From Pseudomonadota bacterium (lineage in GTDB: Bacteria > Pseudomonadota > Alphaproteobacteria > SP197): a DNA stretch of 62,637 nt. Of the stretch, positions 45,317 to 54,285 are shown one piece after another. Both the position numbers and the translations under genes were made by a program. Each line of letters begins with the position of its first letter. The stretch's first letter is position 1. The DNA lies in the NCBI GenBank assembly GCA_039028155.1, contig JBCCIS010000031.1:1-62637 (forward strand), given 5' to 3'. The notes beneath the pieces were generated by a model, which did no database searches, was not told where the DNA came from, and worked only from the letters and a program-made list of their open reading frames with translations.

Positions 45317-46141
45317 CTATCCGGCACCGGCACGGGATCGTTTGCGCAGCAGCAGCTGCGCGGCGATCAGCAATGTCAGCGAGACCACGAGGACCATGGT
45401 GCCGATGGCGTTGATTTCCGGCGTGACGCCGCGGCGGATCGACGAAAACACATAGATTGGCAGGGTGGTCTCGGATCCTGCCACGAAGAAGGCGATGATG
45501 AAGTCGTCGAAGCTGAACGTGAAGCTGAGCAGGAAACCGGCGAGGATGGCTGGGAAGATCTGTGGCAGCGTGACCTGGCGGAATGTCCGCCACGGCGTTG
45601 CGTAAAGGTCGGCCGAGGCCTCGATCAGTGAACGGTCCATACCGGCGACACGTGCCCTGACGATGACGATCACCAAGGCCATGGTGAACAGCGTGTGCGC
45701 GGCAATCAACGATACGTACCCCATGTTGAGCCGTGGCGCGGCCGATCCTTCGAATGGCCATGCCGCTTCAAGGAGCGGATTGAGGGCATCGAAGACAGTG
45801 ACAAGCGCGATCAAGGTCGCGATGCCGATGACAATGCCGGGGATCATGATCGCGACATAGATCATGCCGTCGTAAAGGACGCGCAGACGCCCCTGCACGC
45901 GTTGAAGTGCGAGCGCGGCCATGGTGCCGAACAGGCTGGCGAAGACCGCTGACGTCGATGCGACGATCAGACTGGTGATCAAGGCGTCCATGGCGAACGG
46001 ATTGTTCAGCGCCTTGCCGTACCACTGTGCCGAGAAACCCTGAAAGTCGCTGGCGTGGCGCCCGGCATTGAAGCTGAAGATCACGATGATCGCGATCGGC
46101 GCATAGAGGAACAGATAAACTGCGGTTGCGTAGAGCCTCAT
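45317..46141 (-). CDS. potC: Polyamine ABC transporter permease (PotC-type)
   Basis: 274-residue inner-membrane permease, six helices, with the EAA-type cytoplasmic loop LIEASADLYATPWRTFRQVTLPQIFPAI. The opening LFLYAPIAIIVIFSFNAGR and the SFTFSFDDFIIAFFVAGSETTLPIYVFSSIR stretch match PotC/PotI. Together with PotB-type, substrate-binding and ATPase genes upstream it makes a complete importer for putrescine, spermidine or a related cation. Confidence 0.9.
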   Translation of the reverse strand: MRLYATAVYLFLYAPIAIIVIFSFNAGRHASDFQGFSAQWYGKALNNPFAMDALITSLIVASTSAVFASLFGTMAALALQRVQGRLRVLYDGMIYVAIMIPGIVIGIATLIALVTVFDALNPLLEAAWPFEGSAAPRLNMGYVSLIAAHTLFTMALVIVIVRARVAGMDRSLIEASADLYATPWRTFRQVTLPQIFPAILAGFLLSFTFSFDDFIIAFFVAGSETTLPIYVFSSIRRGVTPEINAIGTMVLVVSLTLLIAAQLLLRKRSRAGAG

Positions 46142-46228: not shown

Positions 46229-47080
46229 CTAGAACAGGTTGACATCTTTTTGCTGCCCTCCGCGCCGCATCATCACGCGCATGTAGATACTGACGGTCAC
46301 CAGCATGATCAGCACCAGCGTCGCCGCGACAGCCGAGCCGAAGGCCCAGTTCCGCGACTGCAGGAAGAGGTCGACCAGCGCATTGCCGATGAAGAAGACC
46401 TTACCGCCGCCGAGCAGCGCAGGGATCAGGAACTCGCCCATCAGAAGAATAAACACGAGCATGCAGCCGGTCGCGACGCCCGGTATGGAGAGCGGCAAAG
46501 TGACTTGCCGGAAGGTGCGATAGGGTGGCGCGCCGAGATCGCTGGAGGCCTCCAGCAGCCGCTTGTCCAGCTTCTCCAAACTGACATAGATCGGAAACAC
46601 CATGAGCGGCAGGTAGCCATAGACAATACCGACCAGGACCGCGAACGGCGTGTTGATGAGCTGGATACCGTCTAGGCCGAAGAACGCGAGGACTTGGGGC
46701 AGACCGCGTCCACCAAGGATGAAGATCCAGGCGTAGGTCCGGATAAGGATACTGGTCCAGAACGGAATGATGACCAGGATCAGCAGCAGGGTCTTGTACT
46801 TGGGGTTCGCCTTGACCGCCAGGTAGTAGGCAAGCGGATAGGCGACAAGCAGCGCCGCCAGCGTGCCCAGCGGCGCCAGAATCAGCGTGTTTTTGAAGGC
46901 CGCGAAACGCGCCGGCAGGTTGGCGTACTGATCGAAGGTGAACGCGGGAACGTATCCGCCGGCGGCGGCCCGTTCACCGAAACTGAAGACGACGACGACA
47001 ACCAGCGGCAAGGCGAGCATGACCACGAACCACGCCGTGGCCGGCAAGAGCAGCAACCTGTTGATCCAACGACTCGACAT
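46229..47080 (-). CDS. potB: Polyamine ABC transporter permease (PotB-type)
   Basis: 283-residue permease with six helices and the EAA loop LLEASSDLGAPPYRTFRQVTLPLSIPGV. The N-terminus and FWTSILIRTYAWIFILG are characteristic of PotB/PotH. Pairs with PotC-type. The 87-bp space to potC contains a degenerate partial match to the GC-rich dispersed repeat (about 46183-46204). Confidence 0.9.
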   Translation of the reverse strand: MSSRWINRLLLLPATAWFVVMLALPLVVVVVFSFGERAAAGGYVPAFTFDQYANLPARFAAFKNTLILAPLGTLAALLVAYPLAYYLAVKANPKYKTLLLILVIIPFWTSILIRTYAWIFILGGRGLPQVLAFFGLDGIQLINTPFAVLVGIVYGYLPLMVFPIYVSLEKLDKRLLEASSDLGAPPYRTFRQVTLPLSIPGVATGCMLVFILLMGEFLIPALLGGGKVFFIGNALVDLFLQSRNWAFGSAVAATLVLIMLVTVSIYMRVMMRRGGQQKDVNLF

Positions 47081-47117: not shown

Positions 47118-48287
47118 CTAGGCCGACTTGAAGCGCGCCAGCAATTCCGCGCGGTTCGGATCGGTCAATGTCGCCGCCGCGCCGAACTCAAGAGCGTCAA
47201 GCAGCTCGGTCGCCGGATAAAGGATCGGGTCTTCCAGCAATGTCGGCGGCAGCAGCGCATTGGCGCGGCTGTCGGCGACGGGATAGCCGTGGGCCAGAAC
47301 CTCCTTGGCGTTGACGGCCGGGTCCAGCAGGTAGTTGATCAGGGCGTAACCGGCCGCGCGATGTTCGGCACCGCGAGGCACGGCGTAATAGTCGCTCCAG
47401 ATCTCGCCGCCTTCGGCACCCAGCACATAGATCATCTCAGGCATGTCGGTGTTGAGCTGCTTGCCGTCGCCGGTCCAGCACATGGACATCCAGGCGTCGC
47501 CGTTGCGCAGCGGCGGCTGGTAGTCGCTGGAGATGGCATAAAGGTGCGGCTTGGCTTCCAACAGCAGTTTCTCGGCGTCTGCCAGCTCTGCCGGATCGAC
47601 GGAGTTGAAGGAGTAGCCAAAGTACTTCAGCGCATTGCCGATCGTGGTCAGCTGGTAGTCATGGACCATCGTGCGGCCGGAGAAGTCAGCCATCGTCATG
47701 TCCCAGAACTGCTTCCAGGTGTCCGGCGCCTTGCCACCATTATGGCTGGTGTTGATGACGTAGCCGGTCGTGCCCCAGTTCTTCGGCACGGCGTAGACCG
47801 TGCCGTCGACGGTGCCGGCATCGGAGAAGCGTGCGTCGAACGCATCGGCCTGGTAGTTCGGGATCATGGTCAGATCGAGGGGCTCGATGAGATCCTCACC
47901 GACATAGGTCGTGATCGTGTAGTTGGTTGGCACGAAGACGTCCCAGCCACTGCCACCGGCCTGAAGCTTGGCCAGCATCTCCTCGTTCGAGCCGAACACG
48001 TTCACCTGCACATAGGCACCGGTTTGTTCGGTGAACTGCTCGAAGTTCGAGGGATCGTGATAGTTCGGCCAGGTCGCGAGAACAACGCGGTCGCCGATAT
48101 CCTCGGCTGCCCAAGACTTGCGCGGGCGCAATCCCGGAACGGCGCCCGCCATGACGGCACTCGCCATGCCGAGACCGGTTACGCCAAGGAAGTGCCGGCG
48201 CGACACCGATCCCTTCTGATAGCGGCGCAGCTCTTCCATGAACTTCTGCCGACTGATCGGCAGGTTATCTTTGTAGTCCTTTGTCAT
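47118..48287 (-). CDS. potD: Polyamine ABC transporter substrate-binding protein (PotD/F-type)
   Basis: 389-residue periplasmic binding protein. The N-terminus has a twin-arginine motif SRRHFLG followed by a hydrophobic stretch and AWA, suggesting Tat export. Mature sequence has VLATWPNYHDPSNFEQFTEQTGA and the PotD/F-type binding layout (NWGTTGYVIN, AWMSMCWTGDG, EGGEIWSDYYAVPRGAEH). The acidic and aromatic residues expected to hold polyamines are visible, but putrescine versus spermidine versus another cation cannot be told. Good ribosome site, GGGAGAG. Confidence 0.9.
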   Translation of the reverse strand: MTKDYKDNLPISRQKFMEELRRYQKGSVSRRHFLGVTGLGMASAVMAGAVPGLRPRKSWAAEDIGDRVVLATWPNYHDPSNFEQFTEQTGAYVQVNVFGSNEEMLAKLQAGGSGWDVFVPTNYTITTYVGEDLIEPLDLTMIPNYQADAFDARFSDAGTVDGTVYAVPKNWGTTGYVINTSHNGGKAPDTWKQFWDMTMADFSGRTMVHDYQLTTIGNALKYFGYSFNSVDPAELADAEKLLLEAKPHLYAISSDYQPPLRNGDAWMSMCWTGDGKQLNTDMPEMIYVLGAEGGEIWSDYYAVPRGAEHRAAGYALINYLLDPAVNAKEVLAHGYPVADSRANALLPPTLLEDPILYPATELLDALEFGAAATLTDPNRAELLARFKSA

Positions 48288-48356: not shown

Positions 48357-49487
48357 TCAGGCGTCGCGTAGCGCCAGAGCGGACTCCTCCCGCCAACCGA
48401 TCAGCACGTCGTTTCCCGGGGCAAAGCCGCCGGTATGGGTCTCGGCGTGTTTAGGAGACCTAATCAACACCTCGCCCAGACCTTCGGCGTCCACCAGGTA
48501 CTCGGTCTGCTCGCCCAAATAGATTCGATTCCTGACCTTGGCCGGCGTTGTGATATCGCCATCAAGGTGTGCGTTCTCGGTCAGCGCGGCCATGTGGATC
48601 AGTTCCGGGCGGACCGCGAGCACGGCGCTGGTGCCCGGCTGCATTGTGTCCGACCCTTTCGGCCGGCGTCCGCCCAGGACGAGGCCTTTCGACGTTTCAA
48701 GCCTGGCGCGCCCGTTGTCTGCCGCGACGATCTTGCCGTGTAGGAAGTTTGAGCGGCCGACAAAGTCGGCGACGTAACGGTTGATTGGTTCGTCGTACAG
48801 CTCGGTCGGGCTCCCGGTTTGCACGATGCGGCCTTCCAGCATGATGCAGATGGTGTCGCTCATCGAAAGCGCCTCTTCCTGGTCGTGTGTGACCAGGATG
48901 AACGTGATGCCGACATCGCGCTGCAGGGTCTGGAGCTCGATCTGCATTTCGCGGCGCAGCTTCCTGTCGAGCGCGCCCAGCGGTTCGTCCAACAGCAGAA
49001 CGGTCGGGCGGTTGATCAAGGCACGTGCCAAGGCGACGCGCTGCTGCTGGCCGCCCGAAAGCTCCCAGATACGGCGCTTGGCATAGCCGGCCAATCGGAC
49101 GAGTTCGAGCGACTCGTCGACCCGCGCGGTGATCTCCGCGTCACCGGGGCGCGGCGTTACCTGCCGCAGGCCATAAGCGATGTTGTCGAACACGTTGAGA
49201 TGAGGGAACAGCGCGTAATGCTGGAACACCATGTTGACGGGCCGTCGATAGGCTGGGACGCCGACCATGGACGCGCCCTTTATCAGCACGTCGCCTTCCG
49301 TCGGCTGATCGAAGCCGGCAATCATGCGCAACGACGTCGTCTTGCCGCAGCCCGAGGGCCCGAGGAAACTGAAGAAGCCGCCACTGGGAATTTGCAGATC
49401 GAGTGCGTCCACCGCCACGACTTCGTCGAAACGTTTGGTGACGCCGCGAAACTCGACGTCAATCTCAGCCTGGGGTTCGCGTTCCAA
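48357..49487 (-). CDS. potA: Polyamine ABC transporter ATP-binding protein (PotA-type)
   Basis: 376-residue ATPase: Walker A GPSGCGKTT, Q-loop VFQHYALFPH, LSGGQQQRVALARAL, Walker B LLLDEPLGALDRKLR, and a C-terminal TOBE/regulatory domain with RPELIHM. Start TTG 49487 is the only plausible start; no ATG or GTG lies in the open frame upstream. First gene of potADBC, read divergently from the LuxR-family gene. Confidence 0.9.
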   Translation of the reverse strand: MEREPQAEIDVEFRGVTKRFDEVVAVDALDLQIPSGGFFSFLGPSGCGKTTSLRMIAGFDQPTEGDVLIKGASMVGVPAYRRPVNMVFQHYALFPHLNVFDNIAYGLRQVTPRPGDAEITARVDESLELVRLAGYAKRRIWELSGGQQQRVALARALINRPTVLLLDEPLGALDRKLRREMQIELQTLQRDVGITFILVTHDQEEALSMSDTICIMLEGRIVQTGSPTELYDEPINRYVADFVGRSNFLHGKIVAADNGRARLETSKGLVLGGRRPKGSDTMQPGTSAVLAVRPELIHMAALTENAHLDGDITTPAKVRNRIYLGEQTEYLVDAEGLGEVLIRSPKHAETHTGGFAPGNDVLIGWREESALALRDA

Positions 49488-49580
49488 CCTACTACCTGAA
49501 CTCCCAAAGTTGCGCTGACGGATGGGATTCCGGCGCTATATCCCCGCGAACCAAGAAATTCGCAAATTTCACCAGCGAAG

Positions 49581-49604
49581 GATATACCTACCGGGGGGTA
49601 TATC
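49581..49604. promoter_or_regulatory. Inverted-repeat operator between potA and luxR-type gene
   Basis: GATATACC-TACCGGGG-GGTATATC is a perfect 8+8 inverted repeat with an inner TACC...GGTA symmetry. It lies 94 bp from the potA start and 59 bp from the LuxR-family start in their shared 176-bp gap, the position expected for a site controlling both. Confidence 0.65.
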
Positions 49605-49663
49605 TCGATGAGTAGGCCATTTCAGGGGATAGGGGTGGAGCCAGCGGAGATCACACGGAGCGC

Positions 49664-50503
49664 GTGTTGCAGATAACTGATCACGAGTGGCACGAGGAGA
49701 TCGCCAAGGTCATTGGGTCGATCAGAACACCGGACTATCCCCATCGGCTGGTCGACGCGCTCGGGCGGCTGGTTGCCTTCGATTTCTCCGTGATGTTCGC
49801 CTATCGCGGCGACGACCGCCCGCTCGATTTGTTCGACAACTTCGGCGCCAAGCGGCGCGCCATCTTCGTGACCCTCTACCAAGAAGGTCCCTATATGCTG
49901 GATCCTTTCTTTCGGGCGGCGAAAGAGCAGGTCGAACCGGGCCTCTATCGGCTTCGCGAGCTGGCGCCCGACCGCTTCTATCAAAGCGAGTACTTCCGCT
50001 CCTACTACATCAAGACAGGCCTTGCCGAAGAGATCGGGTTTGTCGTCGCGCTGCCTGATGACGTTTGCGCGGTGATGTCGTTGATGCGGTCAAGCAACCG
50101 GCCGGTGTTCAGCGAAAAGGAGATGACGCGGCTGAGAAAGGTCGAACCTTTCGTCCGCGCGTCTGCGGAGTATCACTGGCAGGATCTGAGCGGCCGGTTT
50201 TCCGATGATGCCGTGGATCCCGAGCACGAGATCCTGGAGCGCTACATCGACTACACGTTCCGCAACTTCGGACGCTCGCTGCTCTCGCCCAGGGAACGGG
50301 AAGTCGTCGGCCTTGTGTTGCGTGGTCACTCTTCGGACTCAATCTCTAAGATCCTGGGCATCTCGCCCGGCACCGTCAAAGTCCACCGCAAGAACATCTA
50401 CGCCAAACTCGGCATTATCTCGCAATCCGAGCTCTTCTCGATCTTCTTAAGCTCACTCTCAAAGACGAAGGAGCCGACCAGGTTTCACGAAGTCCAGGGT
50501 TGA
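49664..50503 (+). CDS. LuxR-family transcriptional regulator
   Basis: 279 residues from GTG 49664, with CGGAG upstream. The C-terminal GerE-type helix-turn-helix is clear (LSPREREVVGLVLRGHSSDSISKILGI, then GTVKVHRKNIYAKLG; residues about 207-265). The N-terminal 190 residues form an uncharacterised sensor domain, without an obvious autoinducer-domain signature or receiver Asp. Divergent from the potADBC operon, with an inverted repeat between them, so it is the likely regulator of that importer. Ligand unknown. Confidence 0.87.
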   Translation: MLQITDHEWHEEIAKVIGSIRTPDYPHRLVDALGRLVAFDFSVMFAYRGDDRPLDLFDNFGAKRRAIFVTLYQEGPYMLDPFFRAAKEQVEPGLYRLRELAPDRFYQSEYFRSYYIKTGLAEEIGFVVALPDDVCAVMSLMRSSNRPVFSEKEMTRLRKVEPFVRASAEYHWQDLSGRFSDDAVDPEHEILERYIDYTFRNFGRSLLSPREREVVGLVLRGHSSDSISKILGISPGTVKVHRKNIYAKLGIISQSELFSIFLSSLSKTKEPTRFHEVQG

Positions 50504-52833: not shown

Positions 52834-54285
52834 TCAACCGCCACCATTGTCGAACGGCCACTTGGGCCGCGCGATCTTGTGATAGGTGAGGGCGGTGAAG
52901 TCGGGCGCGACGACACCGGGTGCCGCGACATAGATGACGTCGGCGGCAAGCGGCGCGAAAGCCGTATAGAAGTGCTGGGTCGACTTGACGACGACGATGT
53001 CTAAGGCCGCCGGATCGATGCCGACCTGGGTAAAGAGTTCGGGGCTGTAGCCCTGGGTCCGCACGCTGGTCAAGACGACCGCGATGCCGTCGAAGTGAAT
53101 CGCGGCGCAGTCGCCCAGCGGCGATGGCGTGTCGCCCAGGTGCTGAACGGCCTGTCGCGTCAGTTTGCCGATCGTGACGTCGGCGTCGACCGGCTGCCCA
53201 GATAGCGGGCACATCTTACCGCCGAAGCGGAGCGGGAGCGTGGCGCCCTCACCGGCATCGAAACAGGTGGCGACGGCGATGGGATCCCATAGCGGACCGA
53301 CGGCCGCATTGCCGATTTTTCGCTTGCGCAACGCATCGACCAGAAACGTTGAATCGCCCGGCGCGCCGCCTCCTGCGTTGTCCGATACGTCGGCCAGCAC
53401 GACGGGTTTCTCCGCACCGCTGAGCGCGGCATCCAAGGCATCGTCGATGGCAAGCGGTCGCGGCGCCGTGTTGTCGCGCATCGCGAAGAGTTCCTCACCC
53501 AGCGCGCGGGCGAGATTGTCACCCTTCTCCGCGTCGTCGTCGGTAATGACGAGCACGCGGCTTCCCATGTCGGCGACATCGCCCCAGGGAAAGCCGTGGC
53601 CGATGGAGACGGAGAGGACGCCGTCCTTGCCTTCGAGCGCCGCGGCGCGGTCGACGTATGACCGCATGGGTTCGCGCGGCGTGTGCATGATACCGATCAT
53701 GCCGCAGTCGTGGAGCGACATGTGCGGGCGCACATCGCCGCTGGCGGTCCGTGTCAGCAGCTCGATCAGTTCTTCGGCGCGCGCGGTGCTGTCGGTGTGC
53801 GGGTATTCCTTGTAGGTGACCAGGATATCGGCCGCCGCGATCATCTGATCGGTGATATGGCAATGAAGATCGAGCTCCGCGCCGATTGCGGCGTCCGGTC
53901 CCGCCAGGGCGCGCGCCCGCGCCAGCAGGTCGCCTTCGCAATCGTCGTAACCCTCGGCAATCATCGCGCCGTGCATGCCAAAGGCGACCACGTCGACGGG
54001 CAGGGCGGCCTTCAACTGGTCGAGGATCTCATCGCGCAGGGATTCGTAGGCCGAGCGAACGGTGATGCCGGCGGGCTCGGCCATCGTGCAAAGACCCTCG
54101 ATCACGACCCAGTTGTTCTCTGTGGCGCGCCGGCGCGCGGCCCAAAGCGGCGCGCCGATGAAACTGGGCTCGTCGGGATGGGCGCCGGGTGGGAAGTACT
54201 CGCCAGCCTCAAAGCCCTGGCGAGAGGTCGGGAAGGGCGCAAAGGTGTTGGTTTCGGTGCCTAGTCCGGCCGCGAAGATACGCAA
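52834..54285 (-). CDS. M81 family metallopeptidase (MlrC-like)
   Basis: 483-residue member of the M81/MlrC group, named for the microcystin-degrading MlrC but widespread in bacteria without that pathway. N-terminal DUF1485 part with GTETNTFAPFPT, GMHGAMIAEGYDDCEGD and ELDLHCHITDQM (metal-binding residues), the central DNAGGGAPGDSTF, and the C-terminal VKSTQHFYTAFAPLA stretch are all diagnostic. It is predicted to be cytoplasmic. No other mlr gene is present, so microcystin degradation is not implied. Ends 8 bp after the convergent S33 hydrolase. Confidence 0.85.
   Translation of the reverse strand: MRIFAAGLGTETNTFAPFPTSRQGFEAGEYFPPGAHPDEPSFIGAPLWAARRRATENNWVVIEGLCTMAEPAGITVRSAYESLRDEILDQLKAALPVDVVAFGMHGAMIAEGYDDCEGDLLARARALAGPDAAIGAELDLHCHITDQMIAAADILVTYKEYPHTDSTARAEELIELLTRTASGDVRPHMSLHDCGMIGIMHTPREPMRSYVDRAAALEGKDGVLSVSIGHGFPWGDVADMGSRVLVITDDDAEKGDNLARALGEELFAMRDNTAPRPLAIDDALDAALSGAEKPVVLADVSDNAGGGAPGDSTFLVDALRKRKIGNAAVGPLWDPIAVATCFDAGEGATLPLRFGGKMCPLSGQPVDADVTIGKLTRQAVQHLGDTPSPLGDCAAIHFDGIAVVLTSVRTQGYSPELFTQVGIDPAALDIVVVKSTQHFYTAFAPLAADVIYVAAPGVVAPDFTALTYHKIARPKWPFDNGGG

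Follow-up and report, generated by a model that had tools for sequence, protein, structure and literature searches.

The window, by which we mean the whole 62,637-nt stretch of DNA analysed here, carries an ABC transporter operon of the pot type and, diverging from it, a gene for a LuxR-type regulator. The operon runs on the minus strand in the order potA-D-B-C with potA leading: a potA-like gene for the transporter ATPase (48357–49487, TTG start), a potD-like gene for a solute-binding protein (47118–48287), and two permease genes, potB-like (46229–47080) and potC-like (45317–46141). PotA passes the cut-off of a polyamine family (TIGR01187, 357.9 bits vs. 355.6). The best family matches of PotD, PotB and PotC are also polyamine families, but these proteins fall far below the equivalog level (123 of 582, 212.5 of 348 and 221.7 of 326, respectively), so the substrate of the transporter is uncertain. 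The regulator gene lies on the plus strand (49664–50503) and begins with GTG. An MlrC-like M81 metallopeptidase is encoded near this gene set, at 52834–54285.

The intergenic region holds an inverted repeat at 49581–49604, assigned to neither strand. The initial annotation had described it as perfect and as lying between the divergent potA and LuxR genes, and we confirmed both the exact position and the full complementarity of the arms. It reads GATATACC-TACCGGGG-GGTATATC, with arms at 49581–49588 and 49597–49604 that are 100% complementary and 8 bp apart (GATATACC-N8-GGTATATC); over the 24-mer, 10 of 12 base pairs are complementary. The bare symmetry is little evidence, since 62 perfect inverted repeats with 8-bp arms and a spacer of 0–20 occur in the window (a mean of 33.9 in 10 mononucleotide shuffles), four of them with a spacer of exactly 8 (2.5 in shuffles); the significance of the repeat comes from the cross-genome comparison. 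The unit is more aptly described as a 7-2-7 palindrome of the NarL type at 49585–49600 than as a lux box: the inverted heptamers TACCTAC and GGGGGTA flank a CG, the geometry of the engineered NarL site TACCCCTAAAGGGGTA given in the available text of PMC4549865.

The regulator has a C-terminal GerE helix-turn-helix (HTH) domain (PF00196, 59.2 bits against a cut-off of 23.5). Its N-terminal part has no Pfam match, and no receiver-domain match was found in the protein. A structure model (mean pLDDT 87.5, pTM 0.63) found the ligand-binding domain (LBD) of P. aeruginosa VqsR as its top Foldseek match (5xhx, TM 0.84 by target length), with SdiA, RhlR and LasR ranking behind. The N-terminal domain is homologous to the VqsR LBD and VqsR-like by this measure, with a profile E of 1.7e-25 and a phmmer E of 3.5e-9 for the window protein. 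The HTH aligns with that of NarL, the two having in common the TVKVH core and the lysine that follows it, and in NarL these residues contact DNA; unlike NarL, the window regulator has no receiver-domain match and carries a VqsR-like N-terminal domain. Canonical quorum-sensing LuxR proteins are related in fold but differ in their PF03472 domain and their pocket tryptophans, the latter being invariant in AHL receptors to our knowledge, whereas the window regulator shows no match to this autoinducer-binding domain at E 0.001 and no tryptophan from residue 10 to 171. A canonical AHL-type LuxR receptor with a lux box was rejected on the missing PF03472 match.

We then compared the regions upstream of genes for relatives of the regulator, where a recurring 18-bp palindrome was seen on reading. 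A profile was built from 17 hand-picked sites from other genomes, none from the window. By this profile the repeat at 49581–49604 ranks first in the window with 18.9 bits, against 7.8 bits for the runner-up place, and is the probable best operator candidate in the window for a LuxR-type protein, as the initial annotation had proposed. The null maximum per 62.6 kb was 7.5 ± 2.9 bits, and the highest of 60 simulations reached 14.9 bits. The training sites were chosen by eye with the window's site already known, so that this test was held out but not blind and the 18.9 bits are not wholly independent of the window's site.

Relatives of the regulator were found at 31 loci in named genomes. Within one family they occur in 15 of 17 genomes (E ≤ 1e-40), in a class sample in at least 19 of 385 genomes, the own genome included (E ≤ 1e-20), and in a phylum sample in at least 37 of 398 (E ≤ 1e-25); the last two counts are lower bounds because at most six candidates were scored per genome. 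Loci were dropped if no match covered 120 residues or more at E 1e-15, or if they duplicated another locus with identical upstream DNA. The leave-one-out set comprised 67 of 68 loci (the upstream region of L011 was too short), and a locus was counted if its best score was reached by no more than 2 of the 200 null maxima. Loci were grouped by hand: L056 has an oppositely oriented potA-like gene (28–33%) upstream and was placed with the remaining loci, whereas L063 has an additional potA-like gene at a distance of 5 kb upstream and was placed with the co-directional ones.

According to the initial annotation, absence of the motif upstream of orthologous pot operons would refute the operator reading. 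In the leave-one-out analysis the site was present in 18 of 18 loci with adjacent divergent potA and LuxR genes, and in 17 of these none of the 200 null maxima was as high; 12 of the 18 had contributed training sites, each locus being scored without its own site and those of its listed near relatives. Among loci with a pot-like gene downstream and co-directional, the site was recognised in 9 of 16, and in the remaining group in 12 of 33. A further 27 loci, fetched later, were scored with the profile unchanged. Ten exceeded 14.9 bits, including six of the seven with a divergent potA (L128–L134: 28.3, 29.2, 27.7, 27.8, 11.7, 29.8 and 28.5 bits), the seventh, L132, having a moderate score without a null of its own. 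For L126 (26.8 bits) and L140 (19.1 bits), the 3.8 kb examined contains no pot-like gene. L142, also among the later loci, scored 3.1 bits where its upstream cut clipped the site; the same place, taken as L161, scored 23.9 bits. All these loci are related, and the counts are not independent events. The site also precedes family members for which the stretch examined shows no potA-D-like match, for instance L042 (12.8 kb), which indicates that it follows the regulator.

A single genome served as an absence control. G004, from the window's family, encodes PotA, PotB, PotC and PotD at 63–68% identity, which we take for orthologs without a tree, and yielded no full-length LuxR relative: there are HTH-level matches only (best E 3.3e-13, residues 195–266), and in the profile search none of the 6 candidates scored, of 18, reaches 1e-20. 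The operator was not found in 9 kb of this genome, the best score being −0.4.

Several loci count against the operator reading. Where the LuxR gene precedes pot co-directionally in Roseobacter-type loci, seven of eight have no recognised site (L048, L049, L052, L053, L054, L057 and L063; L055 is a marginal pass at 4.8 bits), and in the remaining group the leave-one-out analysis recognised none in 21 of 33. L086 has a potA 80% identical to the window's, the closest among those seen, yet its site is weak (11.0 bits in the leave-one-out analysis; 16.8 and 14.0 bits on the same contig with the fixed profile). No site was recognised in the leave-one-out analysis at L008 and L009, which are part of the remaining group and encode 36%-identical LuxR relatives in the window's own family, or by the fixed profile at the co-directional loci L123–L125. 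A second family copy in genome G022 (L150, contig C156) lies by a potA 80% identical to the window's, and its operator-like sites are weak. The palindrome-free, co-directional Ruegeria-type loci L048, L049, L052 and L063 share sequence words in their upstream regions, among them TTGCCAAGT and GGGATACTTGGG, which perhaps belong to a different operator; the two words together were not seen in the other co-directional Roseobacter-type loci.

A genome search for the motif, suggested in the initial annotation as a way to define a regulon, was run on the own draft genome (5.31 Mb in 118 contigs) and found no regulon. The site at 49581–49604 is the sole exact match. Allowing up to three mismatches adds a single place, against four for a reversed-pattern control, and a shorter consensus, selected post hoc on sequences already inspected, gives three places with up to one mismatch against 12 in the control. 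The other two of these three sit within long open frames, and a regulon of operator-like sites in this genome was rejected on both grounds. Since the search yields no excess over the control, the operator looks like a local site and not a regulon motif.

The intergenic region shows further recurring elements. On the LuxR side there is a third half-site, GGGGATAG (49625–49632, plus strand), whose TA is 37 bp away from the centre of the operator. It recurs in relatives: 15 of 23 loci, counting the window, have one further half-site with its TA at 35–38 bp, peaking at 37–38 bp, and nowhere else within 110 nt on that side. On the pot side, a half-site lies at 52–58 bp in 6 of 23 loci, one of which has another at 22, and the window has a weak possible counterpart, GGGGATATAG (49536–49545, minus-strand reading), at 52 bp. 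L086 and L132 were left out of these half-site counts, and the pattern was chosen post hoc. The third half-site may overlap the −10 element of the LuxR gene; GGGGATAG is equally similar to an operator half-site and to a −10.

Of 24 loci (L086 left out), 9 have the hexamer TANNNT on the pot side precisely 32 bp away from the centre of the operator, compared with a mean of 0.35 per offset, the hexamer having been selected after inspection. Taken as a −10, it would place the operator centre near −44 of the pot start. The window itself reads AATTTC at offset 32, which counts against the activation position, and a search of 49450–49720 found no sigma-70-like promoter. The activation position is thus borrowed from relatives. 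Nor was a terminator-like site found in 49450–49720.

Close relatives of VqsR are also present in the two genera examined that we infer to be pseudomonads, and many of their loci carry a similar palindrome. Among the family members, matches to the VqsR LBD have E 1.4e-53 for L141, 8.1e-57 for L188 and 3.9e-59 for L182. We listed 30 loci from the first genus, drawn from 84 matching genomes out of 149, and 30 from the second, drawn from 23 out of 25. The fixed profile passes 24 of the 30 listed loci in the first and 13 of the 30 listed in the second. In many of these pseudomonad-like loci, a palindrome of the TAACC-N6-GGGTA type reaches up to the start codon or stops directly in front of it. A pattern written after inspecting the sequences is found in 46 of the 60 listed loci, where shuffles expect 0.00, although the sequences are closely related. 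An oppositely oriented PotD-like gene is located upstream in 21 of the 30 listed loci of the first genus and 7 of the 30 listed of the second. In many loci of the range L152–L202, the GGGG half of the palindrome is at the ribosome-binding-site position, directly 5′ of the start codon. The VqsR site at qscR reportedly reads TCGCC-N8-GGCGA.

The comparison demonstrates that the site is conserved, that it occurs together with the LuxR gene, and how the protein domains are related. In all likelihood the palindrome serves as a local operator, the docking site for the adjoining VqsR-like LuxR/NarL-type regulator, because it recurs beside related regulators and is absent in the single pot-without-regulator relative checked. 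A dimer of the C-terminal HTH domain would grip both heptamers in the potA-LuxR intergenic region, and the bound regulator would likely control both divergent units, the pot operon and its own gene. Pot activation plus self-restraint is the favoured sign: the regulator, sitting in a class II position roughly 44 bp before the pot start, would activate pot, while binding near its own start, assisted by the third half-site, would restrain its own gene. The signal may be a small molecule, perhaps the transporter substrate, bound by the N-terminal domain; it is probably not an acyl-homoserine lactone.

It is possible, although the balance leans the other way, that the site is instead a repressor operator overlapping TATA-like promoter elements of one or both genes, from which the regulator represses both pot and itself until a ligand frees it from the site. 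This alternative concerns the sign only and is compatible with a local operator. The arms hold TATATC/TATAC, and in many pseudomonad-like relatives, and apparently in L108, the palindrome directly precedes the start codon, a layout in which activation of the own gene is unlikely; on the regulator's own gene, however, repression agrees with the preferred model, and the fixed position of the −10-like hexamer at 32 bp fits activation of pot. That some other NarL/FixJ-type response regulator in the cell binds the site appears improbable. The sequence is close to the engineered NarL 7-2-7 site (PMC4549865, available text), and the genome has three other LuxR-type matches, mostly at HTH level, but the site accompanies family members for which the stretch examined contains no pot-like gene, is missing from the one genome checked that has pot and no full-length family member, and shows no excess over control in the own genome.

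Two further readings are weaker still. Perfect repeats are common enough in the window for a functionless chance palindrome to be conceivable, but the score of 18.9 bits exceeds every simulated maximum and the site recurs at the same place in other genomes, which makes chance a very poor explanation. An inverted repeat within an intergenic region could also form a transcription terminator or RNA hairpin instead of a protein site; this too is highly improbable, as the repeat is placed between two divergent starts and not 3′ of a gene, the terminator search was negative, and the letters are conserved, not the spacing alone.

Among known systems, the probable operator finds a close parallel in the sites of NarL. 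The NarL 7-2-7 sites at napF and yeaR likewise consist of two inverted heptamers 2 bp apart, and their positions (−40 to −49 and −38 to −47, respectively, in the available text of PMC4549865) are near the −44 estimated for the pot-side operator. Family sites such as TACCCCCAAAGGGGTA (L050) are one base off the engineered NarL site quoted there. P. aeruginosa VqsR, with its homologous LBD, offers a parallel in gene neighbourhood: vqsR (PA2591) adjoins PA2592, the next locus number, which encodes a putative spermidine/putrescine-binding protein according to the text available from PMC5767178 and PMC3202535. It differs in that VqsR has been investigated for its part in quorum sensing, as a repressor of qscR (PMC4211393). 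LuxR solos adjoining polyamine transporters have already been published: subgroup E of fluorescent pseudomonads (PjeR, PolR) is flanked by polyamine transport genes (PMC8546723). These proteins can be set beside the window regulator by gene neighbourhood; the available text of that paper gives no operator and reports that promoters at PjeR and PolR are not induced by polyamines, which would count against a polyamine-type signal. In the literature searched, which left most subscription journals outside, we found no published description of the operator analysed here.

As an operator the site is of a common type, and its tie to the VqsR branch is more interesting. We tentatively propose, at somewhat less than even confidence, that VqsR belongs to an old and widespread family of one-component regulators, linked to transporters and present in alpha- and gammaproteobacteria, which would sense an amine or other molecule imported by the adjoining Pot-type transporter, activate pot and restrain themselves through an ancestral 7-2-7 operator with a phased half-site. 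If so, VqsR would have acquired its role in P. aeruginosa quorum sensing later. A little-known LuxR-type branch gains a concrete, testable candidate operator and a probable target, and the link between operator, transporter and VqsR-like domain suggests where to seek a ligand, because the branch includes VqsR, for which we know of no native ligand.

The genes next to other family members were also annotated. Of 10 neighbour genes, five had no family match at E 1e-20, and the other five were two aminotransferases, an N-carbamoylputrescine amidase, an allantoate-amidohydrolase-like enzyme and an antiporter-like protein, which is suggestive of amine or nitrogen metabolism but not decisive. In Amphritea, Marinobacterium and Dasania (L034, L042 and L045), genes for an aminotransferase, an allantoate-amidohydrolase-like enzyme or an N-carbamoylputrescine amidase adjoin the LuxR relatives. 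One Rhodospirillales MAG carries a tandem pair of family members (L033, 4008–5633).
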